Positions 27,558 through 49,210 of a stretch of 49,269 nt of DNA are shown here, piece by piece. Source of the DNA: Propionibacteriales bacterium (lineage in GTDB: Bacteria > Actinomycetota > Actinomycetes > Propionibacteriales > Nocardioidaceae); NCBI GenBank assembly GCA_009379735.1, contig WHTB01000003.1, positions 1 to 49,269 of the forward strand, given 5' to 3'. The translations under genes were made by a program, and so were the position numbers. The notes below the pieces were generated by a model, which worked only from the letters and a program-made list of their open reading frames with translations, did no database searches and was not told the origin of the DNA. Position 1 is the first letter of the stretch; the number at the start of each line of letters is the position of its first letter.

Positions 27558-27574
27558 CCCGACTCACTGTCGGG
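27558..27574 (-). terminator. Short hairpin after the LysR gene
   Basis: CCCGAC (27558-27563) and GTCGGG (27569-27574) form a six-pair stem with a five-base loop, 70 bases beyond the LysR stop. It may end the LysR transcript before the structural operon. The stem is short and no T-run follows, so support is modest. Confidence 0.35.
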
Positions 27575-27579
27575 GCGGG

Positions 27580-27621: not shown

Positions 27622-27643
27622 ATGCAGTTTCTCGAAGACGGGT

Positions 27644-29599: not shown

Positions 29600-29777
29600 C
29601 ACGTTCCCTCTCTTTCCAGTCCACGACACGTTGCCCCGCATACTGCCGCGCGAAGACGCCCATTCCTTGCGTCGCACGTCGGGCGTGCTGGTGACAGTAC
29701 TGCTCGCCGTCGACCTCGGCGTCTACCCGGGCCAACCCACGCACGTAACCGGCTGGTCTTCTGCCACCCTGATCTCC

Positions 29778-31212: not shown

Positions 31213-31225
31213 GGCACTGCGTGCC

Positions 31226-31279
31226 GAACGGTGACAGCGGTCGCTGTCCGGTGCCGTTCACGGGGGCGGGCAAGCCCCC
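31226..31279. terminator. Two hairpins between convergent genes
   Basis: The first hairpin (31226-31259) has GAACGG/CCGTTC outer arms and GACAGCG/CGCTGTC inner arms, with a bulge. The second (31262-31279) pairs GGGGGC with GCCCCC around a six-base loop. They fill the space between the MerB-like stop (31212) and the PhyH stop (31283) and probably end both transcripts. Confidence 0.65.
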
Positions 31280-31282
31280 CGA

Positions 31283-32428
31283 TCAGTGGGTGCGGCGGCG
31301 ATCGGAGTACGCCGTCAGCGCAGAACGCAGGACGGACGGGTCCCAGCCTTCCTCGACGGCCTGCCACACCAGCGCGGCCTGACTGGTCGGGGCCGGTCCG
31401 TCGACCGGCTGGTCACGGTCGAGATTGGTCGGGAAGGCATAGCCCTCGGCGGACGCCGCCACGACGTTGCGCAGAGCATCGTCGGCGGTGCCGGCCGTCC
31501 GCATCTCCAGCAGCGTCGGGAAGAGCGCGTTGCACATGCTCTCCCGGTCCACGCTCTCCATCGCCCGGCCGAAGGCGGACGAGATCTGCAGCAGGTTCGC
31601 CATCCGGCGGACATCGGCCGATCGGTTGTGGCCGGCCGCGTGGAACAGTGCCGGGTTGAAGAACACGGCGTCGCCCTTCGCCAACGGGAGCTGCACGTAG
31701 TTGGACTCGAAGTGATCGCCGAACTCGGCACGCCGCCAGGCCAGGTAGCCCGGCAGGTACTTGTGCGAGTGGGGCAGGTACTTCGTCGGCCCGGTCTCCA
31801 CCGGCATGTCGCCATGCGCCACCGCACCCTGCAGCGTCAGCACGGGCGACAGCCGGTGCACATGCGTCGGGTACTGCTCGACCCGTTCGTTGGCCATGAA
31901 CCCGAGGTGGTAGTCGCGATGCACGGTCTGCGCCACTCCGCCGGGGTTGACGACGTTGACCTGCGACGTGACCTGGTAGCCCGGTCCCAGCCACGCCAGC
32001 GAGACAAGGGCGAGCATGTCGTTGGCGTAGTAGGCGGCGAACGCCTCGGGCTCGCGCAGCGCCAGCTTCTCCAGCGCGTTCCAGACCCGGTCGTTGGCGC
32101 CCGGCTTGGCGAAGTGATCGCCGGCCGACTCGCCGCTCGCATGCTGCGTCGAGATCATCGCGTTGAACGCGTCCGTGGCCCGGTCGACGACGCCCGGGTC
32201 GGCGAAGGCGCCACGGAGTACGACGATGCCGGGGCCGTCCATCAGGGCACGCGCCAGCTCGGCCTGTCCACGCGTCGACACGCTCTCCGACCGCAGCCGG
32301 TCGCTGTCGTACATGAGGACGTTCTGCTCGACAGATGTCGCGAGCGGATAGTCGGCCACGTCGGTGACCTCGTCGACAACCTCGCGGAGGTCGTCGAGGT
32401 GACAGTCGTCCTCTGCCAGCCGGCTCAT
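31283..32428 (-). CDS. PhyH-type Fe(II)/2-oxoglutarate-dependent oxygenase
   Basis: The 381-residue protein has the PhyH fold: TVHRDYHLG supplies the H-x-D pair (about His170, Asp172) and the region FHAAGHNRS supplies the distal histidine (about 263 or 267) of the iron site, followed by an arginine able to bind 2-oxoglutarate. It hydroxylates or oxidatively demethylates a small molecule. It is the last gene of the inositol operon and overlaps the upstream sugar-isomerase gene by four bases, so it belongs to that transcript. Known inositol pathways do not include such an oxygenase. A plausible role is oxidative removal of a methyl group from O-methylinositols (inference). Confidence 0.75.
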   Translation of the reverse strand: MSRLAEDDCHLDDLREVVDEVTDVADYPLATSVEQNVLMYDSDRLRSESVSTRGQAELARALMDGPGIVVLRGAFADPGVVDRATDAFNAMISTQHASGESAGDHFAKPGANDRVWNALEKLALREPEAFAAYYANDMLALVSLAWLGPGYQVTSQVNVVNPGGVAQTVHRDYHLGFMANERVEQYPTHVHRLSPVLTLQGAVAHGDMPVETGPTKYLPHSHKYLPGYLAWRRAEFGDHFESNYVQLPLAKGDAVFFNPALFHAAGHNRSADVRRMANLLQISSAFGRAMESVDRESMCNALFPTLLEMRTAGTADDALRNVVAASAEGYAFPTNLDRDQPVDGPAPTSQAALVWQAVEEGWDPSVLRSALTAYSDRRRTH

Positions 32429-33417
32429 CGACCCGCCGCCGCGAGCAGCGTCTCGGCGGCGCTGCGCAGTCCCTCCAGCTGGTCGAGCTCCTGGTCCTCG
32501 TGCTCGATGTTGACGGCCATGTCCGGGTCGACCTTCTCCAACGCACGCAGGAACTCGCCCCACCAGGCGACGTCGTGCCCGCGGCCGACGGCGACGAAGT
32601 CCCACGACGCGTTCTCCGGCCAGCGGCTGAGCGTGTAGCGACCACCGAGCGAGAGTGCGTCGGCGTCGGAAGGGAGGACTCGCCCGAACCGGTCGTCCAG
32701 CACCCCGTTGACCTTCGCCGCCTCGTTGATCCGGGTGTCCTTGGCCGCCGCGTTGTAGACCAGGTCACCGAGCGAGTTGACCGCGAGGACCGGGTCGATC
32801 CCCTGCCAGAACAGGTGGCTCGGGTCCATCTCGGCGCCGACGTGCGTCGCGTTGATCTCGGTGGCCAGGCGCTCCATCGTGGACGGGTTGTAGACGAGGT
32901 TGTGCGGGTGCATCTCGATGCAGACCTTGACATCCGCGTCGCTGGCCCGGGCCTGGATGTCCTTCCAGTACGGGATGGCGACCTCGTTCCACTGGTAGTC
33001 CCGGGCGTCGAGCGACGCGCTCTCCCATGGCAGCACCGTCCATGACGGCAGGGTGGCGCCGCTGTTCGTGCCCGGCAGGCCGGACATCGTCACGACCCGC
33101 TTCACGCCGAGCAGCGCAGCGATCTCGATCGCCTCCCGGACGTCGTTCGAGTGCTTCTCCCGGACCTCCGGGTCCGGGTGCAACGGGTTGCCGTTGCAGT
33201 TCAACGCAGTGAGCGTCACGCCCGCCGAGGTGAACACGTCGAGGTACTCGTCGCGCGTGTCCTTGCTCGCGCGCACCTGCTCGATCGGCAGGTGCGCCGC
33301 CGGCAGGAAGCCACCGGAGTTGATCTCCGCGCTGTCCAGGCCGAGGTCGCGCAGCGTTTGCACCGCTTCGGCGACGGGCTTGTCGTGCAGGCAGGCGGTG
33401 TAGGCACCAAGCTTCAT
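32425..33417 (-). CDS. TIM-barrel sugar phosphate isomerase/epimerase
   Basis: The 330-residue xylose-isomerase-like TIM barrel starts GAYTACLHDKPVAEAVQTL, then AEINSGGFLPAAHLP, TLTALNCNGNPLHPD, CIEMHPHNLVYNP, and AEMDPSHLFWQG, all matching IolE/IolH/IolI-type and OxiE-like enzymes. Metal ligands are expected among Glu, Asp and His of the EMHPH and EMDPSH blocks. It probably epimerises or isomerises an inosose-type intermediate. It is 39 bases after the Gfo/Idh gene and overlaps PhyH by four. Confidence 0.8.
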   Translation of the reverse strand: MKLGAYTACLHDKPVAEAVQTLRDLGLDSAEINSGGFLPAAHLPIEQVRASKDTRDEYLDVFTSAGVTLTALNCNGNPLHPDPEVREKHSNDVREAIEIAALLGVKRVVTMSGLPGTNSGATLPSWTVLPWESASLDARDYQWNEVAIPYWKDIQARASDADVKVCIEMHPHNLVYNPSTMERLATEINATHVGAEMDPSHLFWQGIDPVLAVNSLGDLVYNAAAKDTRINEAAKVNGVLDDRFGRVLPSDADALSLGGRYTLSRWPENASWDFVAVGRGHDVAWWGEFLRALEKVDPDMAVNIEHEDQELDQLEGLRSAAETLLAAAGR

Positions 33418-33456: not shown

Positions 33457-34632
33457 TCAGACGACGACGTCGGCGCCACCGGACTCGGCGGAGTCGACGA
33501 CGGCCCTGAGCAGTCGGATGTTGTGCAGGCCGTGCTCGAACGACGGTGTCCGAGGGAGTTGGTCGAGGCCGGCGACCTGCTCGAGGAAGGCCCGGGCCTG
33601 CCAGACGAACAGGTCGTTCTGGCCGTAGTTGACGCTGTCGAAGTCCATCGCGAGGCCGCCGGCGACGTACGGGTGGGCGGGACCCACCAGCACCTGCCGG
33701 AACCCGTTGACGGCGTGCGCCGAGGACCCGTCGACGAGGCCGAACTCGCCGGCTCGGGCCAGGTCGAAGGTTGCGGCACCCGACTGGGTGAACAGCTCGA
33801 AGCCGAGCGAGTTCGGCAGGCCGTAGGCGACCCGGGACGCGGACAACGTGCCGGTCGCTCCGGACGCAAACGTTGCCGTGAACGTCACCAGGTCCTCGTT
33901 CTCGACCGGCTCCATGACATCGCTCACCGCCGTCGCGGCGTGCCCCACAGCAGTGCCGAGCGGCAGCGCCCGCTCGGTGATCACCGTCGACAGGACTGCC
34001 CCGCGCACCGAACGCACCGGCCCGCAGACGAACTCGGCGAGGTCGATCAGGTGGCTGCCGATGTCGGACAACGCACCCGAGCCGGCGCCGCCCCTGTACC
34101 GCCAGCTCATCGGGCCGTGCGGGTCGACGCCGTAGTCGCACCAGTAGTGGCCGTTGAAATGTACCGGGCTCCCGATACTCCCCTCCTCGACCAGCTGCCG
34201 GATCGCGGCGATCGCCGGCGACCGGTGGAAGGTGAAGCCCACAGCCGTCTCCACTGCCAACGACTTCGCCGCCGCCACCATCGCCTCGGCGTCCTCGATG
34301 CTCGGCGCCAGCGGCTTCTCGCACAGGACGTGCTTGCCGGCCGCGAGCAGACCTTCGACGATCTCGCGGTGCAGCGGGTTCGCGACCACGACACTCACGA
34401 CGTCGATGTCCGGAGCGTCGGCGATCGCCTGCCAGCTGGTCTCTGCCCGCTGGTAGCCGAATCGTCGGGCGGCATCGGTGGCGAAGTCGGTATTGACGTC
34501 GGCGACCGCGACCAGCCGGATGTCGGGCAAGCCCGGTCCGTACACGGTTGTCGCACCGCGATATCCAGCGGCGTGGGCACGGCCGGCCATGCCGGCGCCG
34601 ATGACAGCGACCCCAAGTGACGACGATGCCAT
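33457..34632 (-). CDS. Gfo/Idh/MocA-family dehydrogenase
   Basis: The 391-residue NAD(P)-dependent oxidoreductase has the N-terminal VIGAGMAGRAHAAGY, VVVANPLHREIVEGLLAAGK, VLCEKPLAPS (with the catalytic lysine in EKP) and the long beta-sheet domain with DIGSHLIDLAEF, whose histidine is part of the active site. It oxidises a sugar or cyclitol hydroxyl. It starts one base before the upstream isomerase ends. With the genes at 35499 and 47379 it makes three dehydrogenases in one operon, which suggests several inositol isomers or derivatives as substrates. Confidence 0.85.
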   Translation of the reverse strand: MASSSLGVAVIGAGMAGRAHAAGYRGATTVYGPGLPDIRLVAVADVNTDFATDAARRFGYQRAETSWQAIADAPDIDVVSVVVANPLHREIVEGLLAAGKHVLCEKPLAPSIEDAEAMVAAAKSLAVETAVGFTFHRSPAIAAIRQLVEEGSIGSPVHFNGHYWCDYGVDPHGPMSWRYRGGAGSGALSDIGSHLIDLAEFVCGPVRSVRGAVLSTVITERALPLGTAVGHAATAVSDVMEPVENEDLVTFTATFASGATGTLSASRVAYGLPNSLGFELFTQSGAATFDLARAGEFGLVDGSSAHAVNGFRQVLVGPAHPYVAGGLAMDFDSVNYGQNDLFVWQARAFLEQVAGLDQLPRTPSFEHGLHNIRLLRAVVDSAESGGADVVV

Positions 34633-34633
34633 G

Positions 34634-35491
34634 TCAGCCCCAGTCGCTCGAGTGCTTCTGGATCTGCTCCAGGTTGAAGCGCGCCGACTCCTCGGCTCGC
34701 TCCTCCCAGGCGAAGACGCAGACCGTCATGATGCCGTCGAAGCCAAGGCGCCCGAGAGTCGAGAAGAACTCGTCCCACTTGACCTCGCCCTGGCCGATGT
34801 CGAGGTGCTGGTGCACGCGCGCGGTCGAGCCGGGCGGGTTGACGATGTAGCGCAGGCCGGACGAGCCGCGGTGGTCGAAGCTGTCGGCGACGTGCAGGTG
34901 GGTCAGCAGCTCACCGGCGTACTCCATGATCTCCGTCATGTTGCCGCCCTGGTGGAACGTGTGCGGTGCGCAGTAGAGGAACGATACGTTCGGCGAGTTG
35001 ATCCCGCGCACCATGTCGATGGCGACCTTCCCGTCCTCGACGAAGTCGTCGGGATGCGGCTCGAGCCTGAGGTGCACACCCTCACGTTCGAAGACCGGCA
35101 GCAGCTCCTCCATCGACTTCCAGAACTGTCCTTCGCTGAGGCTCGCCTGCTCGGGGCGTCCGTTGAACTCGGAGTTCATGGTGTCGCAGCCGAGCTCGAC
35201 GGTGATCTCGATGGCCCGCTTCCAGTAGCGCACCGCCGCCTGGCGTTCGTCCTCGTCCGGCCCTGACCACCGGTAGAGCGGCAGGTTCGAGGCCACCGAT
35301 ACCCCGGCGGCGTCGAGCGCCTTCTTGAAGTCCTGGACCTTCTGCCGGTCGGCCCGCGGGTGCAGGAAGAACGGCATGAAGTCCTCGCGCGGCGAGAGCT
35401 CGATGTGCTCGTAACCGAGATCTGCGACTACGCCGGGCAGCTCCAGCAGCGGCACGCTGCGCAGCATGTAGGGGTCGAGGGCAACCTTCAC
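34634..35491 (-). CDS. TIM-barrel sugar phosphate isomerase/epimerase (second copy)
   Basis: The 285-residue xylose-isomerase-like barrel reads VALDPYMLRSVPLLELPGVV, IELSPREDFMPFFLHPRADR, LRLEPHPDDFVEDG and THLHVADSFDH, in line with a metal site built from E-x-H-x-x-D-F and later histidines. It starts at GTG 35491 with AGGGAAG upstream, seven bases after the dehydrogenase stop. A role in converting a keto-inositol is inferred from the operon, not from a specific motif. Confidence 0.8.
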   Translation of the reverse strand: MKVALDPYMLRSVPLLELPGVVADLGYEHIELSPREDFMPFFLHPRADRQKVQDFKKALDAAGVSVASNLPLYRWSGPDEDERQAAVRYWKRAIEITVELGCDTMNSEFNGRPEQASLSEGQFWKSMEELLPVFEREGVHLRLEPHPDDFVEDGKVAIDMVRGINSPNVSFLYCAPHTFHQGGNMTEIMEYAGELLTHLHVADSFDHRGSSGLRYIVNPPGSTARVHQHLDIGQGEVKWDEFFSTLGRLGFDGIMTVCVFAWEERAEESARFNLEQIQKHSSDWG

Positions 35492-35498
35492 GTCGAGC

Positions 35499-36506
35499 TC
35501 ACTTCCCTGCGTAGAAGGACGGTCGGTCGACCAGCTCGACAGCGACCCGCGCACCCTCGGCACGCGCTCGCAGCCCGGCCTCGGCGACCGCCGTCGCGGC
35601 GTAGCCGTCCCACGCGCTCGCGCCATGGAACTCGCCGCTCGCCAGGCTGTCGACCCACGCCTGGAGCTCCGCCTGGTAGGCCGACCCGAACCGCACCCGC
35701 CAGTCAGGGGGTACGACCGTGGTGCGCCCGCCGCGACGGGTCACGGCACCGAGCGTGGGAGTGTCCATCGACGCGACCCCCTCGGAGCCCACCAGCTCGC
35801 AGCGCACGTCGTAGCCGTACTGCGCATGGATGAACGACTCCACGGTGACGAGCACGCCCGATGCCATCTCGAACACCACCAGCTGCGGGTCCTGCGCCGA
35901 CCCCGCCTTCGGCGACGGCTTGCCGGCCAGCACCGTGACGGTGGCGATCTCGTCACCCAACAGCCAACGAGACGTGTCGACCTCATGCACGACCGAGTCG
36001 GTCAGCGCCAGGTCGCTGGTGAACCAGTCAGGCGCCGTCGGGTTGCGGTGTAGGCAGTGCAGCATCAGCGCCTCACCGATGTCCCCGCTGTCGAGCGCGG
36101 CCTTCACCTCGACGTACGCCGCGTCGTACCGGCGCATGAAGCCGAGCTGCACCAGCTGCCGACCCGCCGCCACCTCGGCCTCGATCACCTTCAGGCACTC
36201 GGCCGTGGTGGGCGCCAGCGGCTTCTCGCACAGCACCGGCTTGCCGGCGTCGATACAGGCCAGCACCTGCTCGGCGTGCAGCTCACCCGGCGACGCGATC
36301 AGGACCGCGTCGACCTCGGGGTCGTTGATCACGTCGCCGTCGGTTGCATGGGCGACGGCACCCACCCCGGACGCCACCTCCTTGGCACGCTCGGTCGCCA
36401 CGTCGAACACCGCGACGACGTCCGCGCCCGACACCTGCGACGCGATCCGGTTGGCGTGATCGGTCCCGATGTTGCCGGTACCGATCACTCCGACTCTGAA
36501 GACCAC
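35499..36506 (-). CDS. Gfo/Idh/MocA-family inositol dehydrogenase
   Basis: The 335-residue IolG-like protein has GVIGTGNIGTDHANRI, VFDVATERAKEVA, LIASPGELHAEQVLACIDAG, VLCEKPLAPT, GFMRRYDAAYVEVKAAL and VVHEVDTSRWLLG, the whole IolG signature set, and it oxidises myo-inositol (or an isomer) to an inosose with NAD. It starts at GTG 36506 with AGGGAAAT before it. It is the closest to textbook inositol 2-dehydrogenase of the three dehydrogenases, though the iolG at 47379 is similar, so the isomer each uses is open. Confidence 0.85.
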   Translation of the reverse strand: MVFRVGVIGTGNIGTDHANRIASQVSGADVVAVFDVATERAKEVASGVGAVAHATDGDVINDPEVDAVLIASPGELHAEQVLACIDAGKPVLCEKPLAPTTAECLKVIEAEVAAGRQLVQLGFMRRYDAAYVEVKAALDSGDIGEALMLHCLHRNPTAPDWFTSDLALTDSVVHEVDTSRWLLGDEIATVTVLAGKPSPKAGSAQDPQLVVFEMASGVLVTVESFIHAQYGYDVRCELVGSEGVASMDTPTLGAVTRRGGRTTVVPPDWRVRFGSAYQAELQAWVDSLASGEFHGASAWDGYAATAVAEAGLRARAEGARVAVELVDRPSFYAGK

Positions 36507-36533: not shown

Positions 36534-37349
<816 letters not shown>

Positions 37350-37354
37350 GGTCG

Positions 37355-38404
37355 TCAACTCCTCGAAGCCCGGTTGCGGACCCATAGGTTGGTCACGGTC
37401 GCGAGCAGCAGCATGACGCCGAGGAAGAACTTCACCCAGTCGGGGTTCCATCCGGCGTAGACGATGCCCTTCTCGGTCATGCCGTAGATGAACGCGCCGA
37501 TCGCGGCACCGATCGCCGTGCCGTAACCACCGGTCAGCAGGCAGCCGCCGATGACGGCCGCGATGATGAAGATGAACTCGTTGCCCACGCCCTCACCGGA
37601 CTGCACCGAGTTGAACGTGAACAGCAGGTGCATGCCCGCGAACCACGCCAGGAAGCCGACGCCCATGAACAGGCCGATCTTGGTCTTCACCACGGGTACG
37701 CCGACGGCGCGGGCACTCTCCGCGTCGCCGCCGACGGCGTAGATCCAGTTGCCGACCTTGGTGCGCAGCAGCAGCCAGGTCGCGATCGCGACGAAGACCA
37801 GCCACCACACGATGGAGATGCGGAAGGTGGTGCCGGCGATCGAGAAGTCGGAGGCGAAGATCGCGTCCGCCAGCCCGAAGCCGTCCATGTCGGAGATGTT
37901 GCGGCTCGCGACCTGACCAGTGAGCAGCTTTGTGACCGCCAGGTTGGCGCCCTGCAGCATCAGGAAGGTGCCGAGCGTGATCAGGAAGCTCGGAATCTTC
38001 GTCTTCATCACCAGGTAGCCGTTGAAGAATCCGATCGCGAGCGCGACGGCCAGCGCGACGAAGATTCCCACCCACACGTTGGTGCTGAACTCGTAGCTGA
38101 ACAGCGATGCCGTGAGCGCCGACGTGGTCACCGCGACACCGGCGGACAGGTCGAACTCACCGCCGATCATCAGCAGCGCCACCCCGACCGCCATGATGCC
38201 GATCGTGGAGGAGGAGTACATGATCGTCGAGAAGGCGTCGAGGCTGCGGAACGGGTCCGCCACGGCGAAGAAGAAGACGTAGATGCCGATGGCGCCGACC
38301 AACGCACCCAGCTCAGGGCGCAGCAGCAGCTTCTGCAGCGGAGAGGTCTTCGTGACCCGCTCGTCGGCGAGCGGGGTTTCGGTAGCGACAGGTGACTCAC
38401 TCAT
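37355..38404 (-). CDS. Sugar (inositol) ABC transporter permease, CUT2 type
   Basis: The 349-residue protein has about 9-10 hydrophobic helices and the RbsC/FrcB pattern GGEFDLSAGVAVTTSAL, GFFNGYLVMKTKIPSFLITL, GTFLMLQGANLAVT and an AVGGDAESARAVGVPV loop that contacts the ATPase. ATG 38404 follows GGGAGACACC. It forms the homodimeric membrane channel for the sugar-binding protein encoded upstream. Confidence 0.9.
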   Translation of the reverse strand: MSESPVATETPLADERVTKTSPLQKLLLRPELGALVGAIGIYVFFFAVADPFRSLDAFSTIMYSSSTIGIMAVGVALLMIGGEFDLSAGVAVTTSALTASLFSYEFSTNVWVGIFVALAVALAIGFFNGYLVMKTKIPSFLITLGTFLMLQGANLAVTKLLTGQVASRNISDMDGFGLADAIFASDFSIAGTTFRISIVWWLVFVAIATWLLLRTKVGNWIYAVGGDAESARAVGVPVVKTKIGLFMGVGFLAWFAGMHLLFTFNSVQSGEGVGNEFIFIIAAVIGGCLLTGGYGTAIGAAIGAFIYGMTEKGIVYAGWNPDWVKFFLGVMLLLATVTNLWVRNRASRS

Positions 38405-38434
38405 GGTGTCTCCCAATGTCCAGCGGACGAGGCC

Positions 38435-38465: not shown

Positions 38466-39467
38466 CTACCGGGTGCCGCGCTTGGCGTACTCGGCGACCG
38501 TGTCGATGTTCTCCTGGTCGATGAACGACGGTCCCGTGAGCACGGCCTCGCCGCCGCCGATGATGTTGCCGTTGGTCAGGTAGAGCCACAGTGAGTCGAT
38601 CGCCTCGTACCCCTGCAGGTACGGCTGCTGGTCGATCGCCCACTGCACGTCACCGGCCTCGATCGCGGCGACCAGGTCGGCGTTGGTGTCGAAGGTGACG
38701 ACCTGGGCCGAGCTGCCGGCTCCCTCGACCGACTGCACCGCGGCGAGGGCGAACGGCGCACCGAGCGTGACCACCCGGTCGATGGTCTTGTCCTGCGCCA
38801 GCTTTGCCTCGATGTTCGAGCCCACCGATGGCATGTCGCGCCCGTTGACGTAGAGCTTCTGGGTCTTTCCGGAGAACGTCTCCTCCACGCCGGCGCAGCG
38901 CGCTTCGAGCTGCACCTGACCCTGCTCCTGGATGACGCACATGGCATTCTTGGCGCCCTCCTCGTTCAGGCGCTCGCCCACCGCCTGGCCGGCGACCGTC
39001 TCGTCCTGGCCGAAGTACATCAGCGCGCCGGTGTCCTCCCAGCTGTCGACGCCGGCGTTGAACTCGACGACCGGGATCCCGGCCTCGACCGCCTTCTGGA
39101 CTACCGGCCCGAGCGCGTCGGGATTGGACAGGGTCGTCGCGATCGCGTCGACGTCACTGTCGATCGCGGTCTGGATGAGGCTGGCCTGCTTCGGCGCCTG
39201 TGGGTCGTTGGAGTAGATCAGCTCGACGTTGTCCTTCGCCGCGGCCGCCTCGGCACCCTTGCGGATCAGGTCCCAGAAGGTGTCGCCCGGCGCCTCGTGC
39301 GTGATCATCGCGATCTTGACGCGAGGAGTGTCGGCAACTGCGGCGTTGTTGCCGCCGGAGGCCTTCTCCTCCTCCTGCTTGCCGCCGGAGCCGCTGCAGG
39401 CCGCGAGGCCTAAGACAGCCACGGCGGCGAGAGCGACGAGTGCGCTGCTCGTGCGCGTGTTCTTCAT
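38466..39467 (-). CDS. Sugar ABC transporter substrate-binding lipoprotein (inositol type)
   Basis: The 333-residue RbsB-type binding protein has a lipoprotein signal (MKNTRTSSALVALAAVAVLG, lipobox LAACSG) and the periplasmic-binding core VKIAMITHEAPGDTFWDLIR, with NGRDMPSVGSNIEAKL and VVTFDTNADLVAAIEAGDV. It is an outer-face receptor for inositol or other cyclitol by context. ATG 39467 follows AGGAAAGG and overlaps the stop of iolE by four bases. Confidence 0.9.
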   Translation of the reverse strand: MKNTRTSSALVALAAVAVLGLAACSGSGGKQEEEKASGGNNAAVADTPRVKIAMITHEAPGDTFWDLIRKGAEAAAAKDNVELIYSNDPQAPKQASLIQTAIDSDVDAIATTLSNPDALGPVVQKAVEAGIPVVEFNAGVDSWEDTGALMYFGQDETVAGQAVGERLNEEGAKNAMCVIQEQGQVQLEARCAGVEETFSGKTQKLYVNGRDMPSVGSNIEAKLAQDKTIDRVVTLGAPFALAAVQSVEGAGSSAQVVTFDTNADLVAAIEAGDVQWAIDQQPYLQGYEAIDSLWLYLTNGNIIGGGEAVLTGPSFIDQENIDTVAEYAKRGTR

Positions 39468-40417
39468 GGTGTACTGCCTTTCCTAGGTGACCGGGTTTGG
39501 TCAGGAGTACGACGCCCGGGCCCGAGCCCGCACCGTCCGAGGTACTGGCGGGTCCGGGTGGCGATGGGGAGGGGAGCATCTGCCGTGCAGGGGTAGAGGT
39601 CCTGCTCGACGATCGCGAAGAGGTCCGCGTCGAGGCGTGCCAGGGACTCGATCAGCGGCTCCAGGGCGGGTTCGCCGTTCGGCGGCTCGACCATGGCGCC
39701 GAGCGCGACCGCCTCGGCGAAGCACAGCTGTTCGTCGTCGACCCGTCGCACGATGTCGGGGTCGACCTGCTTGAGATGCACGTAGCCGATCCGGTCGGGG
39801 TAGCGCTGGATCAGCTCGAGGTTGTCGCCGCCGCAGTACGCGATGTGCCCGGTGTCGAGGCACAGCGCGACGCTCTCCGGGTCGGTGGCGGTGAGGAACC
39901 GTTCGACCCGTTCCTGGGTGTCGACGTGGCTGTCGGCGTGCGGGTGGAACACCAGTGAGACGTCGAACTCCGCCGAGATCACCTCGCCCAGCTCGGACAT
40001 CCCGCTGCAGAGGTCGTCCCACTGCGCCGGCTCGAGGTCGACCGGCTGGTTGATCGTGCCGTCGAGGTCGGCGTAGCCCTCCGGCAGCAGCACCAGGTGC
40101 TTGGCGCCGAGTGCGGTCAGCAGCCGCGCCTCCTGCCGGCAGTCCTCGACGGCCTGCTTCAGCGCCTCCGCACCGCGATGCAGTCCGGCGACCACCGCTC
40201 CCCCGGACAGCCGCAGACCGCGCTGGCCGAGCTCGTCAGCGAGCCGGTCGGCATCGGTCGGCAGATAGCCGTACGGCCCCAGCTCGATCCACTCGTACCC
40301 GGACTCGACGACCTCGTCGAGGAACTGCTGCCACGGTACCTGCGCGGGGTCGTCGGCGAACCACACGCCCCAGGAGTCGGGCGCGGTGCCCAACCGGATG
40401 CGGTGCTGCGTCGTCAT
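39464..40417 (-). CDS. iolE: Inosose dehydratase IolE
   Basis: The 317-residue TIM barrel begins LGTAPDSWGVWFADDPAQVP, the hallmark of actinobacterial IolE, which dehydrates 2-keto-myo-inositol to 3D-trihydroxycyclohexane-dione. LVFHPHADSHVDTQ and LCLDTGHIAYCGGD hold expected metal ligands. GGAGACGCG precedes ATG 40417. A related barrel at 46507 is divergent (APISWGVCEVPGWGHQ) and may use another inosose. Confidence 0.85.
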   Translation of the reverse strand: MTTQHRIRLGTAPDSWGVWFADDPAQVPWQQFLDEVVESGYEWIELGPYGYLPTDADRLADELGQRGLRLSGGAVVAGLHRGAEALKQAVEDCRQEARLLTALGAKHLVLLPEGYADLDGTINQPVDLEPAQWDDLCSGMSELGEVISAEFDVSLVFHPHADSHVDTQERVERFLTATDPESVALCLDTGHIAYCGGDNLELIQRYPDRIGYVHLKQVDPDIVRRVDDEQLCFAEAVALGAMVEPPNGEPALEPLIESLARLDADLFAIVEQDLYPCTADAPLPIATRTRQYLGRCGLGPGRRTPDQTRSPRKGSTP

Positions 40418-40429: not shown

Positions 40430-41926
40430 TCAGTGAGCGGTCGGGAAGTGGAAGCTGGACGCGACGGGGTGCTCGACCTGCGGCCACCGCGACGTGACTA
40501 CCTTGGCCCGGGTGTAGAAGGACACGCCTTCCGGGCCGTGGATGTGCTTGTCTCCGAACAGCGAGTCCTTCCAGCCGCCGAACGAGTAGTAGGCCATCGG
40601 CACCGGGATCGGCACGTTGATTCCGATCATGCCGACGTGCACGCCGCGCTGGAAGCGACGCGCCGCCTCGCCGCTGGAGGTAAAGATCGCCGTGCCGTTG
40701 CCATACGGGTTGGCATTGACCAGCTCGATCGCCTCGTCGACGGTCTCGACCCGCAGCACCGACAGCACCGGACCGAAGACCTCCTCGGAGTAGACGTCCA
40801 TCTCCGGGGTCACCTCGTCGACCACGGTCGGGCCGACGAAGAAGCCCTGCTCGAAGCCGGGTACGACGAGGGACCGGCCGTCGACCGTCACCCGTCCGCC
40901 CTGCTTCTCACCGGCGTCGATCAGGCCGATGATGCGGTCGCGTGCCTCCGGCGTGACGACGGGGCCCATCTCGCTCTTCGCGTCCCGGCCGGAGCCCACT
41001 ACAACCTCGTTGGCCTTGGCGTTGACGGCCTCGACGATCGCGTCACCGGCCTCCCCGACGGCGACCGCGGCCGAGATCGCCATGCACCGCTCCCCCGCCG
41101 AGCCAAAGGCCGCGGAGACCAGATGGTTGGCGGCGAAGTCGAGGTCCGCGTCCGGCAGGATGACCGCGTGATTCTTGGCGCCGCCGAGCGCCTGCACCCG
41201 CTTGCCGGTGGCGTTGGCTCGCTCGTGGATGTACTTCGCGATCGGCGTCGACCCGACGAACGAGATCGCCTGCACGTCCGGGTGGTCCAGCAGCGCATCG
41301 ACCGACTCCTTGTCCCCGTGTACGACGTTGAAGACGCCCTCCGGCAGACCCGCCTCCGCCCACAGCTCCGCGACCCGTACTGACGCCGACGGGTCCCGCT
41401 CGCTCGGCTTCAGGACGAACGCGTTGCCGCACGCGATGGCGACCGGGTGCATCCACATCGGCACCATGACCGGGAAGTTGAACGGCGTGATCCCGGCGAC
41501 GACGCCGAGCGGCTCGCGGAACGAGTAGACGTCGACGCCCCTCGACACCTGGTCGGAGTAGTCGCCCTTGAGCAGCTGCGGGATGCCGCAGGCGAACTCC
41601 ACGACCTCGAGCCCGCGCTGCACCTCCCCCTTGGCGTCCGACACGACCTTGCCGTGCTCGTCGCTGACGATCTCGGCCAGTTCGTCGACGTGTGCGTTGA
41701 CCAGCTCACGGAACGCGAACAGCACCTTGCTGCGCTGGCTCAGGGACGACTGTGACCACGACTCGAAGGCCGTCTTCGCGGCGCGGACGGCGGTGTCCAC
41801 GTCGGAGGTGCTCGCGAGCGTGACCTCGGCCTGCGTCTCGCCGGTGGCGGGGTTCCACACGGTGCTGCGGCGGGCCGACTCTCCGGCGGTGGTCTGGCCG
41901 CCGATCCAGTGCTGGATGGTTCTCAT
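40430..41926 (-). CDS. iolA: Methylmalonate-semialdehyde dehydrogenase IolA/MmsA
   Basis: The 498-residue aldehyde dehydrogenase family member has GVVAGITPFNFPVMVPMWMH, FVGSTPIAKYIHERA, and the catalytic cysteine in SAGERCMAISAAV. It is CoA-dependent and turns malonic or methylmalonic semialdehyde to acetyl-CoA or propionyl-CoA plus CO2, the last step of inositol breakdown. The active Cys sits in the ERCM motif shared by MmsA rather than the GQ-C of general aldehyde dehydrogenases. ATG 41926 follows AAAGGA, 20 bases after iolD. Confidence 0.95.
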   Translation of the reverse strand: MRTIQHWIGGQTTAGESARRSTVWNPATGETQAEVTLASTSDVDTAVRAAKTAFESWSQSSLSQRSKVLFAFRELVNAHVDELAEIVSDEHGKVVSDAKGEVQRGLEVVEFACGIPQLLKGDYSDQVSRGVDVYSFREPLGVVAGITPFNFPVMVPMWMHPVAIACGNAFVLKPSERDPSASVRVAELWAEAGLPEGVFNVVHGDKESVDALLDHPDVQAISFVGSTPIAKYIHERANATGKRVQALGGAKNHAVILPDADLDFAANHLVSAAFGSAGERCMAISAAVAVGEAGDAIVEAVNAKANEVVVGSGRDAKSEMGPVVTPEARDRIIGLIDAGEKQGGRVTVDGRSLVVPGFEQGFFVGPTVVDEVTPEMDVYSEEVFGPVLSVLRVETVDEAIELVNANPYGNGTAIFTSSGEAARRFQRGVHVGMIGINVPIPVPMAYYSFGGWKDSLFGDKHIHGPEGVSFYTRAKVVTSRWPQVEHPVASSFHFPTAH

Positions 41927-41946: not shown

Positions 41947-43818
<1,872 letters not shown>

Positions 43819-44694
43819 CTACGCCCCCTTCTCCGACGTCGTGGTCAGCGGCAGCCGCGGATCCACCGCTTGCTCGGCCCAGGTGTCCCGCACCCAGCCG
43901 TGCGCGGGGTCGTCGCAGATCAGCCAGGCGCGCTCCGAGCCCGGTCCGGCCATCACGTTGAGGTAGTAGAGGTCGTAGCCCGGCGTGGCCATCGACGGTC
44001 CGTGCCACCCGTGCGGGATCGTCACGACGTCGCCGCTGCGCACCTCGGCCAGCAGGTCCTCGGGGCGGTCGGCCGTGCCGTACACCCGCTGGTAGCCGAC
44101 GCCCCGGCCCGCGGGTCCCGCGCCGACCTCGAAGTAGTAGATCTCCTCCAGCACGCTCTCCTCGCCGGCGCGGTCCTCGTCGTGCTTGTGAGGTGGGTAC
44201 GACGACCAGTTGCCGGCCGGTGTCAGCACCTCGACGGCGATCAGCTTGTCGGCCTCGAACGCCCCGGCGGCGGCGAAGTTGTTGACCTGCCGGCTGCACG
44301 ATCCCGCGCCCCGGGTCTCGACCGGCACGTCCTCGGCCGCGCCGTACCGGGCCGCCAGCCGGCGGGAGCAGCGCGCCGACGGCAGCGCGAACCTGCCGCC
44401 ACCGGCGGACGAGATGGTGACCGTGGAATCCCTTGGCACGTAGGCAAAGTCGGTGACCCGGCTGAACACACTCTCCCGGCCCTGTAGCTCGAAGGTCTCG
44501 CCGTCACAGGCGACCGCGCAGCCGCCGGCCAGCGGGAGGACGACCATCTCCTCCTCACCCGTGTCCACAGTGCGGGTGCCGACCGGCGCCAACGTGAGGA
44601 CCCGCAGCCCGGCGTAGTCCCAGCCGGCGTCGGCGGGCAACACGCTGAGGTCACCCTCCCGCGCCACGATGTGCATCGCCTTGCCGTCGCTCAC
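43819..44694 (-). CDS. iolB: 5-deoxy-glucuronate isomerase IolB
   Basis: The 291-residue cupin protein has the two-barrel fold of IolB. SSYPPHKHDEDRAGEESVLE supplies the metal-binding histidines, and IYYFEVGAGPAGRGVGYQRV, IPHGWHGPSMATPG and YYLNVMAGP are family blocks. It isomerises 5-deoxyglucuronic acid to 2-deoxy-5-keto-gluconic acid. It overlaps the aldolase-like gene by four bases and abuts iolD. Confidence 0.95.
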   Translation of the reverse strand: MSDGKAMHIVAREGDLSVLPADAGWDYAGLRVLTLAPVGTRTVDTGEEEMVVLPLAGGCAVACDGETFELQGRESVFSRVTDFAYVPRDSTVTISSAGGGRFALPSARCSRRLAARYGAAEDVPVETRGAGSCSRQVNNFAAAGAFEADKLIAVEVLTPAGNWSSYPPHKHDEDRAGEESVLEEIYYFEVGAGPAGRGVGYQRVYGTADRPEDLLAEVRSGDVVTIPHGWHGPSMATPGYDLYYLNVMAGPGSERAWLICDDPAHGWVRDTWAEQAVDPRLPLTTTSEKGA

Positions 44695-45566
44695 AGCAAC
44701 CCCACCGTCCGGTCGACCGCGGCGGCGACGTCACCGTCGGGCGGGTAGAGCAGCGCGCGGCCGACGACCATCCCCTGCACCGTCGGCAGCTTGAGCGCGC
44801 GCTGCCAGCGGTCGATGGTGTCCTCCTCGTCCACACTCGCCTCGCCACCGAGCAGCAGCACCGGCAGCGAGGACGCACCGGCGACGATCTCCATATCGTC
44901 CACGACCGGCAGCTTGAGCCAGGTGTATGCCGACGTCGTGCCCAGTGCGGCGGCCACGGTCACCGAGCGCACCACCGACTCGGTGGTCAGGTCGTTGCGG
45001 ACGCGGCCGTCGGCCCGATGCGAGATGAACGGCTCGACCATCGCCATCAGCCCGTAGCCGGCCAGGTCGGTGACGGCGTGGGCGCAGGCCTGCAGGGTCT
45101 GCACGGTGGCCGGGTCGTCGGGGTCGATGCGACACAGCATCTTGCCGCCGTCGAGGCCGGCCGCGGCGATGCTCGCCGCGTCGTACGCCGTGAAGCGGTC
45201 GTCGATCTCGAACGCCGTACCCACCAGCCCGCCGCGGTTCATCGAGCCGATGACCACCTTGTCGTCGAGCGCGCCGAGCAGCAGCAGGTCCTCGATCAGG
45301 TCGGGCGTGCCGAGGAAGCCGTCGACACCGGGGCGGGCCAGCGCGACCTGCAGCCGGCGCAGCAGCTCGGCGCGGTCCGCCATCGCCAGCGGGTCGTCAC
45401 CGACGCGCAGCGCTCCGCGGGCGGGGTGGTCGGCAGCGATCAGCATCAGCCGACCGGACTCGCCCAGCAGGTCGGACCGCCGACGCCGGTGGTCGGCGGC
45501 CGCGGTGATGTCGTGCGGGCGCCGTGCCCGGGTGGTCGCGATCGTGCGGATGTCGTCAGCGGTCAT
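44691..45566 (-). CDS. Cgl0159-type aldolase-like (beta/alpha)8 protein
   Basis: The 291-residue TIM barrel reads LIAADHPARGALRVGDDP, GFLGTPDLIEDLLLLGAL, DGGKMLCRIDPDD, LMAMVEPFISHR and TAYTWLKLPVV-like AYTWLKLPVVDDME, resembling actinobacterial proteins annotated as deoxyribose-phosphate-aldolase-like and named for Corynebacterium Cgl0159. In inositol clusters of this type it most likely cleaves 2-deoxy-5-keto-gluconate-6-phosphate (the IolJ step) because no other aldolase is present; this is inference. The lysines in KMLC and LKLP are candidate Schiff-base residues. It overlaps iolC and iolB by four bases each. Confidence 0.75.
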   Translation of the reverse strand: MTADDIRTIATTRARRPHDITAAADHRRRRSDLLGESGRLMLIAADHPARGALRVGDDPLAMADRAELLRRLQVALARPGVDGFLGTPDLIEDLLLLGALDDKVVIGSMNRGGLVGTAFEIDDRFTAYDAASIAAAGLDGGKMLCRIDPDDPATVQTLQACAHAVTDLAGYGLMAMVEPFISHRADGRVRNDLTTESVVRSVTVAAALGTTSAYTWLKLPVVDDMEIVAGASSLPVLLLGGEASVDEEDTIDRWQRALKLPTVQGMVVGRALLYPPDGDVAAAVDRTVGLL

Positions 45567-46510
45567 CGGTGCTCCTTCAGCTTGGCGTCGACCTGGACGG
45601 AGGTCGGCATGGCGTCGGAGCAGGACAGCTCACCGGCGACGATCGCGCCGGCGGCGTTGGCGAACCGGATGGTGCGTTCGGTGTCCCAGCCCGAGAGCAG
45701 GCCGTGGCAGAGGGCGCCACCGAAGGCGTCGCCCGCACCCAGCCCGTTGACGACGTCGACCGGCGCCGGCGGCACCTCGACGCTGCCGTGGTCGTCGACC
45801 GCCAGCACGCCCTTGGGCCCCTGCTTCACCACCGCCAGGTCGACGCCGCGCTCGCGCAGGGCCGCGGCGGCGCGAGCCGGCTCGGTCTCGCCGACCGCGA
45901 CCTCGCACTCCTCACGGTTCCCCACCGCGACGGTCACGTACTGCAGCGCCTCCTGGACGGCGCCCGTCGCCTCTTCGGGGTGCGGCCAGAACGTCGGCCG
46001 GTAGTCGAGGTCGAGGATCGTGAAACCCCGCCTGTCGCGTGCCTCCAGCGCCGCCAGCGTGGCGCTGCGGCTCGGCTGCTGTGACAGCCCGGTAACCGTC
46101 GCCCAGAAGATGTCGGCCGAGCGGATCGCGTCGAGGTCGAGCTCGGCCGGGTAGATCTCCAGGTCGGGCGCCTTCGGCTCACGGTAGAAGTAAAGCGGGA
46201 AGTCGTCCGGCGGGAAGATCTCGCAGAACGTGACCGGGGTCGGCAGCTCCGCGACCTCGGAGACGAACACGTCGGACACGTCGTACCCCTTGAGCGCGCG
46301 CCGCACGAACCGGCCGAACGGGTCGTCGCCGACCCGCGTGATGATCGCGCTGCGTCGGCCGTGCCGGGCGGCGGCGACCGCGACGTTAGTGGGGCTGCCG
46401 CCCAGGAACTTGGCGAAGCTGACGACGTCCTCGAGGCCGACGCCGATCTGCTCGGGGTAGATGTCGACGCCGGTGCGACCGATGGTCAGGACCTCCCAGT
46501 GGTCGGTCAT
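45563..46510 (-). CDS. iolC: 5-dehydro-2-deoxygluconokinase IolC
   Basis: The 315-residue PfkB-family kinase has an N-terminal TIGRTGVDIYPEQIGVGLED, FLGGSPTNVAVAAARHG, and the C-terminal catalytic motif NGLGAGDAFGGAL with the base Asp in GAGD. It phosphorylates 2-deoxy-5-keto-gluconate at the 6 position. Four-base overlaps join it to both neighbours. Confidence 0.95.
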   Translation of the reverse strand: MTDHWEVLTIGRTGVDIYPEQIGVGLEDVVSFAKFLGGSPTNVAVAAARHGRRSAIITRVGDDPFGRFVRRALKGYDVSDVFVSEVAELPTPVTFCEIFPPDDFPLYFYREPKAPDLEIYPAELDLDAIRSADIFWATVTGLSQQPSRSATLAALEARDRRGFTILDLDYRPTFWPHPEEATGAVQEALQYVTVAVGNREECEVAVGETEPARAAAALRERGVDLAVVKQGPKGVLAVDDHGSVEVPPAPVDVVNGLGAGDAFGGALCHGLLSGWDTERTIRFANAAGAIVAGELSCSDAMPTSVQVDAKLKEHR

Positions 46511-47382
46511 GCGGCCAGCTTCCCGAGGAACTCGAGGCTGGCGCGTACGTCGGCGATCGGCCCCTCGTCAGGCGCCGGCTCGGTGTCGAGCATGGCGTCC
46601 TGCTCCATGACGTACCAGCCGCGATAGCCGCTGCCTTCGAGGTACGTGATGATCGCCGCGATGTCGATGTCGCCGGAGCCGAGTGGGTGGTAGACGCCGC
46701 GCCGGACGGCCTCGGTGTAGCCGACCTCACCACGCTGCACCCGCCCGGCCAGCGCCGCGTCGACGTCCTTGAGGTGCGTGTGCGCGATGCGGTCGGGGAC
46801 CTGGCGAGCGAGGTCGACCGGGTCGGTGCCGCCGATCAGCAGATGGCCCGTGTCGAGGCACAGCGGCACGTCGCTGCCGGCCAGGACGCGGTCGACCTCG
46901 TCGCGGCGCTGGACCATCGTGCCGACGTGCGGGTGCAGGGTGGCGGTCACCCCGCGCTCGGCGGCGATGTCCCTGATCCGGTCCAGGCTGTCGAGCAGCG
47001 CCGCCCACTGGCCCTCGTCGAGCGTCGGCCGCTCGTCGTACCCGTCGCGCCCGGTGGCGGCGGCGAGCACGAGGATGGTGGCGCCGGCGGCGGTGAGGTG
47101 CTGCAGCGCGGGCTCGATCGCGGGCAGCGGGTCGCCGTCGTGGAGTACGACGGGCACGAACCCGCCGACCGCGTTCAGGTCGTACGACCTGAGCAGCGCC
47201 GCGGCCGCCTCCGGGTCGACGGGCAAGAAGCCGTCCGGGCCGAGCTCGGTGGCGGCGATGCCGAGCTCGTGCATCTGACCGAGGACGGTCCGGGGCGGCA
47301 GCTGGTGGCCCCAGCCGGGGACCTCGCAGACGCCCCAGGAGATGGGGGCGGCGGCAATGCGGTCGGCCGCCGAACCGCTCAC
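46507..47382 (-). CDS. IolE/IolH-like TIM-barrel protein
   Basis: The 291-residue xylose-isomerase-like barrel begins AAAPISWGVCEVPGWGHQ, then ATELGPDGFLPVDPE, VTATLHPHVGTMVQRRDEVD, LCLDTGHLLIGGTDPVDLAR and HTHLKDVDAALA. The layout and metal residues match inosose dehydratases, but the APISWGV opening sets it apart from the iolE at 39464. It may act on a different inosose (scyllo or D-chiro) or isomerise it. It overlaps iolG by four bases. Confidence 0.8.
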   Translation of the reverse strand: MSGSAADRIAAAPISWGVCEVPGWGHQLPPRTVLGQMHELGIAATELGPDGFLPVDPEAAAALLRSYDLNAVGGFVPVVLHDGDPLPAIEPALQHLTAAGATILVLAAATGRDGYDERPTLDEGQWAALLDSLDRIRDIAAERGVTATLHPHVGTMVQRRDEVDRVLAGSDVPLCLDTGHLLIGGTDPVDLARQVPDRIAHTHLKDVDAALAGRVQRGEVGYTEAVRRGVYHPLGSGDIDIAAIITYLEGSGYRGWYVMEQDAMLDTEPAPDEGPIADVRASLEFLGKLAA

Positions 47383-48380
47383 TTGCTCACCTCCGCGACC
47401 TCGACCCGGCGCCCCTCACGCATGGACAGGTCGGCGGCCTCGGCGATGCAGAGGGCGGCGAGCGCCTCGTCCACCGTGCACGGGCTGGGCGTCGTGCCCT
47501 TGGCGACCTCGATGAACGCGTTGACCTCCGCCAGGTAGGCCGGGGTGAACCGTACCCAGAAGTTGGGCCAGGGATCGCCGGCGGGCAGGGTGGCGCCGTC
47601 CTCGGCGGAGACCAGCGGGGTGCGCTCGTCGAGACCCACGGCGTACGTCGCCTTGGTGCCGGCCAGCTCCATGCGTACATCGTGGCCGCCGCCGTTGTAG
47701 CGGGAGCCCTGGAGCGTCACCAGCGTGCCGTCGTCCAGCGTCAGCAGCGCTGCGGTGTTGTCGACGTCGTCGGACTCTCGGAAGAACGCGGCCCCCCGGT
47801 TGGCGCCGCGCGCGGTCACGTCGACGACCTCGCGACCCGTGACCCAGCGGAGGATGTCGAAGTCGTGGATGTGGCAGTCGCGGTACATGCCGCCGCTGCG
47901 GGGGAGATAGTCGGGGTGCGGCGGCTCCTGGTCGGCGGTCACGAGATGCACCCGGTGCAGGTCGCCGATCGTGCCGTCCGCCAGCGCCTGCTTGGCGGTG
48001 CGATAGCCGTGGTCGAAGCGACGTTGGAAGCCGATCTGGACCGGCACCCCGGCCGCCTCGACCTCCGTCAGCACGCGCCGCGACTGGGTGATGTCGAGGG
48101 CCACCGGCTTCTCGCAGAAGGTGGGCAGCCCGGCCCGTACGCCCGCGGTGATCAGGTCGGCGTGAGCGTCCGTCGCGGTCGCGATAACCACGGCGTCGAC
48201 GCCGCTGGTGAAGACCTCCTCGACCGCGTCGACACTCTCGCAGCCGAGCCGTTGCGCCGCCTCGTGCGCCCGGGCCGGGATGGCGTCGGCCAGAACGAGG
48301 CTCTCGACGTCAGGGTGCTGCCGCACGACGGTCGCATGGTTGCTACCGATCCGGCCGAGGCCCAGGACTCCGATGCGCAT
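47379..48380 (-). CDS. iolG: Inositol 2-dehydrogenase IolG (first gene of operon)
   Basis: The 333-residue Gfo/Idh/MocA protein has IGVLGLGRIGSNHATVVRQ, VVIATATDAHADLITAGVRA, TFCEKPVALD (catalytic Lys), GFQRRFDHGYRTAKQAL and DCHIHDFDILRWVTG with the active-site Asp and His. It oxidises myo-inositol to 2-keto-myo-inositol with NAD. ATG 48380 is used although the best GGGAGG lies 14 bases upstream; a TTG at 48416 is the in-frame alternative. Its leader contains the operator shared with iolR. Confidence 0.85.
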   Translation of the reverse strand: MRIGVLGLGRIGSNHATVVRQHPDVESLVLADAIPARAHEAAQRLGCESVDAVEEVFTSGVDAVVIATATDAHADLITAGVRAGLPTFCEKPVALDITQSRRVLTEVEAAGVPVQIGFQRRFDHGYRTAKQALADGTIGDLHRVHLVTADQEPPHPDYLPRSGGMYRDCHIHDFDILRWVTGREVVDVTARGANRGAAFFRESDDVDNTAALLTLDDGTLVTLQGSRYNGGGHDVRMELAGTKATYAVGLDERTPLVSAEDGATLPAGDPWPNFWVRFTPAYLAEVNAFIEVAKGTTPSPCTVDEALAALCIAEAADLSMREGRRVEVAEVSK

Positions 48381-48420
48381 GCCTGCAGTGTTGTCCTCCC
48401 GATCGTCCGTCGTCAAGACT

Positions 48421-48449: not shown

Positions 48450-48466
48450 CGGTGTACGGTTTGGCA

Positions 48467-49210
48467 GTGGCCTCCACCCCGTTCTCGATCTCGGTCGATC
48501 GGCGCTCGCCGGTCCCGCTGTACTTCCAGGTGTCGCACCAGATCGAGGAAGCCATCGAGGCCGGCACGTTGGAGCCCGGCCACAAGCTCGACAACGAGAT
48601 CGCGCTCGCCGACCGGCTCGGGCTGTCGCGCCCGACCATGCGGCGCGCGATCCAGGAGCTGGTCAGCAAGGGGCTGCTGGTGCGCAAACGCGGCGTCGGC
48701 ACCCAGGTCGTGCATGGCCGGGTCCGCCGCGAGGTCGAGCTGACCAGCCTGTACGACGACCTGGAGCGGACCGGCCAGAAGCCACGGACCCAGGTGCTGG
48801 TCAACGCGGTCGAGCCGGCGCCGTTGGAGGTCGCGGACGAGCTCGGCCTGGCGGCCGACACCCCGGTGCTGCGGATCGAGCGGCTACGGCTCGCCCGTGG
48901 CGAGCCGCTCGCCGTACTCCGCAACTGGCTGCCCCAGTCGGTGCTCTCCCCCACCGACGCCGAGCTCGAGCAGCACGGCCTCTACCAGATGATCCGCGCC
49001 AGCGGGACGCACATGCGCATCGCCCGCCAGCGGATCGGCGCACGCGGCGCGACGTCGGCGGAGGCGAAGCTGCTCGGCGAACGGAAGAACGCGCCGCTGC
49101 TGACCATGCAGCGGACGACGTACAACGACTCGGGCAACGCCGTCGAGTTCGGCAACCATGTCTACCGGGCCGAGACCTACTCCTTCGAGGTCACCCTGGT
49201 CGAGCGCTGA
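48467..49210 (+). CDS. iolR: GntR-family (HutC/UTRA) repressor of the inositol operon, IolR-like
   Basis: The 247-residue protein has an N-terminal winged helix (SPVPLYFQVSHQIEEAIEAG, LADRLGLSRPTMRRAIQELV, GLLVRKRGVGTQVV) and a C-terminal UTRA effector domain (about 85-245) ending with NHVYRAETYSFEVTLVER. It divergently faces the inositol operon and presumably represses it until an inositol-derived metabolite binds. The GTG at 48467 is preferred as start; an in-frame GTG at 48452 and TTG at 48461 are alternatives, and none has a strong ribosome site, so a nearly leaderless transcript from the predicted promoter is possible. Confidence 0.85.
   Translation: MASTPFSISVDRRSPVPLYFQVSHQIEEAIEAGTLEPGHKLDNEIALADRLGLSRPTMRRAIQELVSKGLLVRKRGVGTQVVHGRVRREVELTSLYDDLERTGQKPRTQVLVNAVEPAPLEVADELGLAADTPVLRIERLRLARGEPLAVLRNWLPQSVLSPTDAELEQHGLYQMIRASGTHMRIARQRIGARGATSAEAKLLGERKNAPLLTMQRTTYNDSGNAVEFGNHVYRAETYSFEVTLVER

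Follow-up and report, generated by a model that had tools for sequence, protein, structure and literature searches.

A predicted Fe(II)/2-oxoglutarate oxygenase family tied to inositol catabolism in Actinomycetota and Pseudomonadota, with O-demethylation of plant methylinositols as its possible role

The canonical iol clusters (IolCatGC) of Bacillus subtilis, Sinorhizobium meliloti and Corynebacterium glutamicum combine the iolA, B, C, D, E and G functions with an aldolase and an ABC transporter, and in B. subtilis the ketone formed from D-chiro-inositol is isomerised by IolI (PMC9603128). A large survey of iol clusters mentions no dioxygenase (PMC9430895). According to Bahar 1998, as cited in PMC5789663, rhizobia are thought to use the ferredoxin oxygenase MocDEF on an O-methyl-inosamine before the Iol pathway. 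Apart from this MocDEF model, no bacterial enzyme opening methylinositols to catabolism was named in the literature searched, nor was any PhyH protein linked to inositol or pinitol in a search that left most subscription journals outside its scope.

The window analysed here, i.e. the whole stretch of 49,269 nt from contig WHTB01000003.1 in whose positions all coordinates are given, contains an inositol operon in which the same iolA, B, C, D, E and G functions, aldolase and ABC transporter were recognised by profile matches. This operon is a same-strand (-) run of about 16 genes, from 48416 down to 31283, separated by overlaps or by gaps below about 50 bp, with phyH as its last gene. Curated cut-offs were exceeded by iolC, iolD and the CoA-acylating methylmalonate-semialdehyde dehydrogenase (iolA). 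The features are as follows.

48452..49210 (+): GntR/UTRA regulator, divergent from the operon (PF07702, PF00392)
47379..48416 (-): iolG2, inositol 2-dehydrogenase-like, first gene of the operon (TIGR04380, 293 bits, cut-off 355)
46507..47382 (-): second IolE-like TIM-barrel protein (TIGR04379, 163 bits, below cut-off)
45563..46510 (-): iolC, 5-dehydro-2-deoxygluconokinase (TIGR04382, 382 bits, above cut-off)
44691..45566 (-): Cgl0159-type aldolase, putative IolJ role (PF22649, 413 bits)
43819..44694 (-): iolB (PF04962 KduI/IolB, 286 bits)
41947..43818 (-): iolD, trihydroxycyclohexane-1,2-dione acylhydrolase (TIGR04377, 938 bits, above cut-off)
40430..41926 (-): iolA, CoA-acylating methylmalonate-semialdehyde dehydrogenase (TIGR01722, 733 bits, above cut-off)
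39464..40417 (-): IolE-like inosose dehydratase (TIGR04379, 161 bits, below cut-off)
38466..39467 (-): substrate-binding protein (SBP), inositol/rhizopine type (NF052284 rhizopine SBP, 166 bits, below the cut-off of 420)
37355..38416 (-): ABC transporter permease, ribose/CUT2 type (PF02653, 200 bits)
36534..37451 (-): ABC transporter ATPase, sugar type (PF00005)
35499..36506 (-): iolG1, dehydrogenase of the B. subtilis myo/D-chiro-inositol type (NF052679, 365 bits, cut-off 540)
34634..35626 (-): isoC, AP_endonuc_2 isomerase-like protein (PF01261, 170 bits), IolI/IolO-type candidate
33457..34632 (-): LgdA/scyllo-inositol-dehydrogenase-like Gfo/Idh/MocA oxidoreductase (NF052479, 266 bits, below the cut-off of 650)
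32425..33417 (-): isoD, AP_endonuc_2 TIM barrel, sugar isomerase/epimerase-like (best PDB match 2zds)
31283..32428 (-): phyH, predicted Fe(II)/2-oxoglutarate oxygenase of the PhyH superfamily, 381 aa
31218..31262 (no strand assigned): hairpin, possible terminator, between the convergent ends of phyH and a MerB-like gene

In comparisons with solved structures, the SBP matched 4ru1 (E 5e-123), reportedly solved with myo-inositol, iolG1 matched 3mz0, an "inositol 2-dehydrogenase/D-chiro-inositol 3-dehydrogenase" (E 1e-93), and the product of 33457-34632 matched the scyllo-inositol/L-glucose dehydrogenase 5ya8 (E 2e-67) and 6a3f (E 6e-70). The isoC gene, which comes after iolG1 in the operon and probably starts nearer 35.5 kb, gave 47 bits with the IolO model NF041099, below its cut-off, and E 3e-6 with TM0416 (2zvr). 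The divergent GntR/UTRA gene is likely to regulate the operon.

The initial annotation had described the last gene as encoding a PhyH-type protein with an intact HxD...H site, and this was indeed recovered: PF05721 (PhyH) matched its product with 115 bits (E 6e-33, cut-off 22) along profile positions 5-213 of 213, i.e. the full domain. The metal site reads H170-R-D172 ... H263, and R275, the 2-oxoglutarate arginine, lies 12 residues past H263, as in PhyH enzymes; H170, D172, H263 and R275 are invariant in an alignment of 54 phyH-family sequences. The same annotation had placed this oxygenase gene at the end of the inositol operon, overlapping an isomerase gene. It is the 3'-most gene of the run, and its start ATG at 32428 shares ATGA with the TGA of isoD, by which the two genes are, as read from the sequence, translationally coupled; "isomerase" is a fold-level label for isoD, as this gene gave no NCBIfam equivalog match. 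Downstream, the stretch 31205-31285 folds at -37.6 kcal/mol (z about -2), and the hairpin within it, which lacks a U-tract and was not called by the terminator scan, is a weak candidate for a terminator. The convergent gene beyond it, at 30547-31212 (+), is MerB-like (alkylmercury lyase, PF03243, 68 bits) and is preceded by a short-chain dehydrogenase (SDR) gene at 29631-30530. Elsewhere in the window, a second catabolic neighbourhood (22141-28591) holds genes for two family III CoA-transferases (22141, 26221), for an extradiol dioxygenase of the LigB type (23687-24700) and for a regulator of the LysR family (27644). An ABC importer of an iron/polyamine-like class occupies 16667-22613 (-); it comprises a tandem pair of solute-binding proteins (SBP_bac_1/6), a fused permease and a TOBE-domain ATPase.

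An AF2 model of the phyH product, of moderate quality (pTM 0.77, mean pLDDT 68, core partly below 50), confirms the predicted double-stranded beta-helix of the PhyH type. Its structural neighbours include FtmOx1 (Z 18.8, 270 aligned residues, 3.7 A) and KanJ (Z 16.9, 18% identity). With fungal meroterpenoid/alkaloid oxygenases and KanJ as nearest folds at similar Z, and with low confidence in the model core, these neighbours give no pointer to the substrate.

The phyH gene belongs to a family clearly set apart from other PhyH proteins. In a sample of 293 genomes of the order, searched at E<=1e-10 with the window PhyH, 36 genomes were positive, with full-length matches at nearly always 59-69% identity (51% in one), and no other PhyH protein passed this threshold. 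At class level, 38 of 394 sampled genomes were positive (53-69% identity), and at phylum level 9 of 296. Named genomes yielded at least 587 confirmed phyH loci; the 80 of these that were listed were mostly from Streptomyces, together with Geodermatophilus, Blastococcus, Arthrobacter and Anaeromyxobacter oryzae (67% identity). On plasmids, 48 records matched (47 at <60% identity, 47 covering >=80% of the query), from Rhizobium, Sinorhizobium, Shinella, Caballeronia, Pantoea, roseobacters and others. The family is thus hosted by Nocardioides-like genomes, Kribbella, Streptomyces, Geodermatophilaceae, rhizobia, Pantoea, Caballeronia, roseobacters and Anaeromyxobacter. Identity within it is mostly 47-70%, followed by a gap to every other PhyH, and about 90 positions are near-invariant among 54 family sequences. 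On this evidence the family is discrete and orthologous, and, because of this gap and these near-invariant positions, the alignments suggest one function common to the whole of it. Degraded copies were also seen: phyH is apparently frameshifted in a Kribbella-like genome (G002:C1:5949131-5950247) and reduced to a fragment in another such genome (G034:C1:3527414-3527665), so that phyH is in some cases lost from genomes that retain iolD. An ortholog 61.5% identical was found on an unannotated, UNVERIFIED 16-kb "Bacteriophage sp." scaffold from human faeces (L169, MT835877.1), which is probably a bacterial contig filed as phage.

The association of this family with inositol catabolism was evaluated using iolD, scored by TIGR04377, as a marker. 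In the order sample, iolD was present in 36 of 36 phyH+ genomes vs 101 of 257 phyH- genomes (Fisher p 8e-14, a value inflated by phylogenetic relatedness), and 28 of the 36 phyH copies lay <=20 kb from iolD, where 0.28 would be expected by chance; the possibility, raised in the initial annotation, that PhyH occurs only here by chance does not survive these counts. iolD was likewise present in nine further genomes, traced from their phyH loci and with Anaeromyxobacter and Geodermatophilaceae among them (eight above cut-off, one as a partial match); the phyH of Anaeromyxobacter oryzae stands alone about 250 kb from it. Among the 96 loci in which a phyH ORF was called, 63 had core iol enzyme or inositol-type ABC genes flanking phyH, although flanks were often shortened by contig ends in this count, and such genes were likewise nearby in 11 of 20 clusters formed at 80% identity. 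In Paracoccus, Marinovum, Pantoea, Shinella and Tsukamurella, phyH lies inside inositol clusters. The bacteria in which the family recurs next to inositol genes come from soil or live in association with plants. No inositol genes were found within 12 kb of phyH in Caballeronia (L156, L165), Ruegeria (L154), or the R. tumorigenes, Ciceribacter and S. meliloti copies. The other PhyH genes of the window's own genome (contigs C68 and C480) had no iol matches in the flanks available.

These data support a tie between the phyH family and inositol/cyclitol catabolism. The role at the pathway entrance that had been ascribed to phyH is well supported by orthologs that lie within or adjoin the iol clusters of numerous genera from two phyla, together with the iolD co-occurrence, and the enzyme would act, by this genomic evidence, no later than the first step that dehydrogenates a cyclitol.

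In 69 of 96 loci, a divergent LacI-type regulator with a periplasmic-binding domain is found directly upstream of phyH, and a same-strand dehydrogenase directly downstream, again in 69 of 96, being an SDR in 47 cases, a Gfo/Idh/MocA protein in 21 and LgdA-like in 1. The phyH-linked SDR belongs to subfamily PRK06198. The LacI-phyH-SDR unit was found in S. meliloti Ak57 pSymB, Rhizobium tumorigenes, Ciceribacter, Thioclava, where it adjoins iolE-D-C, and Tsukamurella, and Agrobacterium has LacI-phyH-Gfo; the unit thus spans Actinomycetota and Pseudomonadota. The window is a variant, in which phyH has lost, or never had, its LacI and SDR partners; its place is beside the LgdA-like dehydrogenase and the isomerase-like gene. 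The order phyH-lgdA-isoD is kept in locus L051, and one or both of lgdA and isoD occur close to phyH in L098, L120 and L136. The window SDR at 29631-30530 was considered as the missing partner; at only 32% identity to the phyH-linked SDR, it is suggested to be a non-ortholog. Taken together, genome comparison indicates a widespread oxygenase family with clear limits, which belongs to inositol catabolism and in most cases comes with a regulator and a dehydrogenase of its own.

Since inositol catabolism as described so far runs without an oxygenase, the substrate must differ from inositol in a feature that takes an oxygenase to remove or supply: an O-methyl substituent, a hydroxyl that is absent, or an amine. 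The leading hypothesis, which offers the best chemical and ecological fit and to which we give about even odds (probability about 0.5), is that phyH encodes a cytosolic Fe(II)/2-oxoglutarate oxygenase that would feed the inositol pathway by demethylating O-methylinositols. The inositol-type ABC transporter of the operon would import pinitol (3-O-methyl-D-chiro-inositol) or ononitol, PhyH would consume O2 and 2-oxoglutarate to hydroxylate the carbon of the O-methyl group, and the resulting hemiacetal would collapse to formaldehyde and free inositol (e.g. D-chiro-inositol from pinitol). IolG1, being of the myo/D-chiro type, or a sibling of this dehydrogenase would then oxidise the free, often D-chiro-, inositol, and an AP_endonuc_2 protein would isomerise the oxidised product to 2-keto-myo-inositol, which would enter IolE-D-B-C-J-A, while formaldehyde would be left to the general formaldehyde dehydrogenase of the cell. 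O-Methylinositols are the commonest modified inositols in plants. Demethylation is favoured, on indirect grounds, because of this abundance, pinitol being the most concentrated component measured in Mimosa root exudate (145 uM vs 0.73 uM for inositol), an exudate that induced iolA, B and C in two rhizobia (PMC5789663), and because pinitol and ononitol accumulate in legume nodules (PMC8730688). It is further favoured because D-chiro-inositol, the product from pinitol, would suit IolG1, whose nearest relative is a dual dehydrogenase, and the adjoining AP_endonuc_2 gene, because the dedicated dehydrogenase of 69 of 96 loci fits a freed cyclitol other than myo-inositol, and because rhizobia are thought, in the cited account of Bahar, to use the unrelated MocDEF on O-methyl-inosamine. 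Counting against demethylation are the absence of the usual LacI and SDR partners from the window, the occurrence of phyH in marine roseobacters (Ruegeria TM1040), where a plant methylinositol is a less obvious substrate, and the operon SBP, which is nearest to inositol-type SBPs and whose binding of methylinositol is putative.

Formaldehyde genes, expected to bear on this reaction, were evaluated by scoring the mycothiol-dependent formaldehyde dehydrogenase with TIGR03451 in 73 phyH+ genomes. It was above cut-off, as a housekeeping gene, in 65 of the 73, and within 20 kb of phyH in 2 of 73, about as expected by chance and with no enrichment; it was absent above cut-off from the window's own genome, a draft of 483 contigs. 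The only copy of one genome (G163) and a second copy in Blastococcus (G924, locus L168; G924:C73:71860-72933) each lie about 11 kb from phyH. Clustering of formaldehyde genes, promising in these two genomes, was thus dropped as support for demethylation, no excess being seen across the 73.

The same genomic evidence would also accommodate ring C-H hydroxylation of a deoxy-inositol (quercitols, viburnitol), giving inositol without formaldehyde, with entry of the product via the partner dehydrogenase. Direct C-H hydroxylation is the commonest reaction of the PhyH superfamily, and formaldehyde genes are not clustered with phyH, both in line with such a reaction. Deoxy-inositols are, however, taxonomically narrower in plants than O-methylinositols, whereas the phyH family is very widespread, and we consider this reaction unlikely. 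A slightly less improbable proposal, though still an unlikely one, is a different methylated or modified sugar (a methyl hexose, or an anhydro-sugar route with the LgdA-like dehydrogenase), the inositol link then reflecting only shared dehydrogenases, isomerases and transporter. The LgdA-like dehydrogenase and isomerase genes adjoining phyH in the window and L051, and the Caballeronia and Ruegeria copies devoid of nearby inositol genes, would agree with it, but iolD co-occurrence is complete in the genomes searched, and the lgdA-like partner is conserved within one branch only while the iol link extends beyond.

Oxidative deamination/demethylation of an aminocyclitol (scyllo-inosamine, 3-O-methyl-scyllo-inosamine), yielding the inosose directly as KanJ acts on kanamycin B, appears quite improbable. 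KanJ-KanK is an oxygenase-dehydrogenase pair, which phyH and its dehydrogenase partner would parallel, KanJ is among the structural neighbours, and the rhizopine SBP model gives a match, under its cut-off, to the SBP of the operon. FtmOx1 and PrhA are, however, at least as close as KanJ, which makes the fold non-specific, no aminotransferase or amine-specific gene recurs among the identified neighbour clusters, and rhizopines are rare, being made by few rhizobia (PMC10107442), while the phyH family is common in Streptomyces. Finally, a general-purpose or biosynthetic PhyH may have landed in the operon as a chance neighbour, PhyH genes being plentiful in actinomycetes, where a Kribbella-like genome has 6-17 of them at E<=1e-8. 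An internal control, composed of 12 phyH+ genomes with 92 PhyH genes at that threshold, speaks clearly against it: 12 of 12 family members lay <=20 kb from iolD, against 0 of 80 other PhyH genes. As the linkage is moreover conserved across two phyla, chance location was rejected on the linkage and iolD co-occurrence statistics, and its probability is close to nil. Demethylation of O-methylinositols keeps its place as the leading reading. Its extension to a widespread, previously unrecognised route of Actinomycetota and Pseudomonadota, in which a single 2-oxoglutarate oxygenase would bring plant O-methylinositols into inositol catabolism, is a shade more tentative.

Found in hundreds of soil genomes and on rhizobial megaplasmids, a conserved candidate with a dedicated regulator and dehydrogenase would fill the methylinositol gap and offer a usable marker gene for studies of rhizosphere competition. 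If the hypothesis is true, phyH would represent a new family of non-heme-iron O-demethylases and the missing step in the turnover of a major solute of root exudates and nodules.

Compared with known systems, the phyH family shares its Pfam domain, HxD...H motif, 2-oxoglutarate arginine and fold with the PhyH superfamily (phytanoyl-CoA dioxygenase, SnoK/SnoN, KanJ, TlxJ, FtmOx1, SptF), but it stands separate, at about 12-22% identity to solved members in structural alignments, with about 380-400 aa and extra N- and C-terminal helices; no characterised member of the family was found. KanJ shares the fold and was absent from the phmmer list obtained with the phyH query at E<=1. The likeness to MocDEF is one of outline, in that an oxygenase would act on an O-methylated cyclitol before the Iol pathway takes over (PMC5789663, PMC10107442). 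MocDEF is, however, a multi-gene ferredoxin oxygenase, whereas phyH encodes one Fe/2-oxoglutarate protein with a PhyH domain only, and Pfam/NCBIfam profiles detected no Rieske or ferredoxin gene in the window operon, which sets it outside the MocDEF type; MocDEF may be regarded, at most, as a functional analogue of phyH. By contrast with the canonical inositol pathway, which has no oxygenase, the operon of the window includes one.
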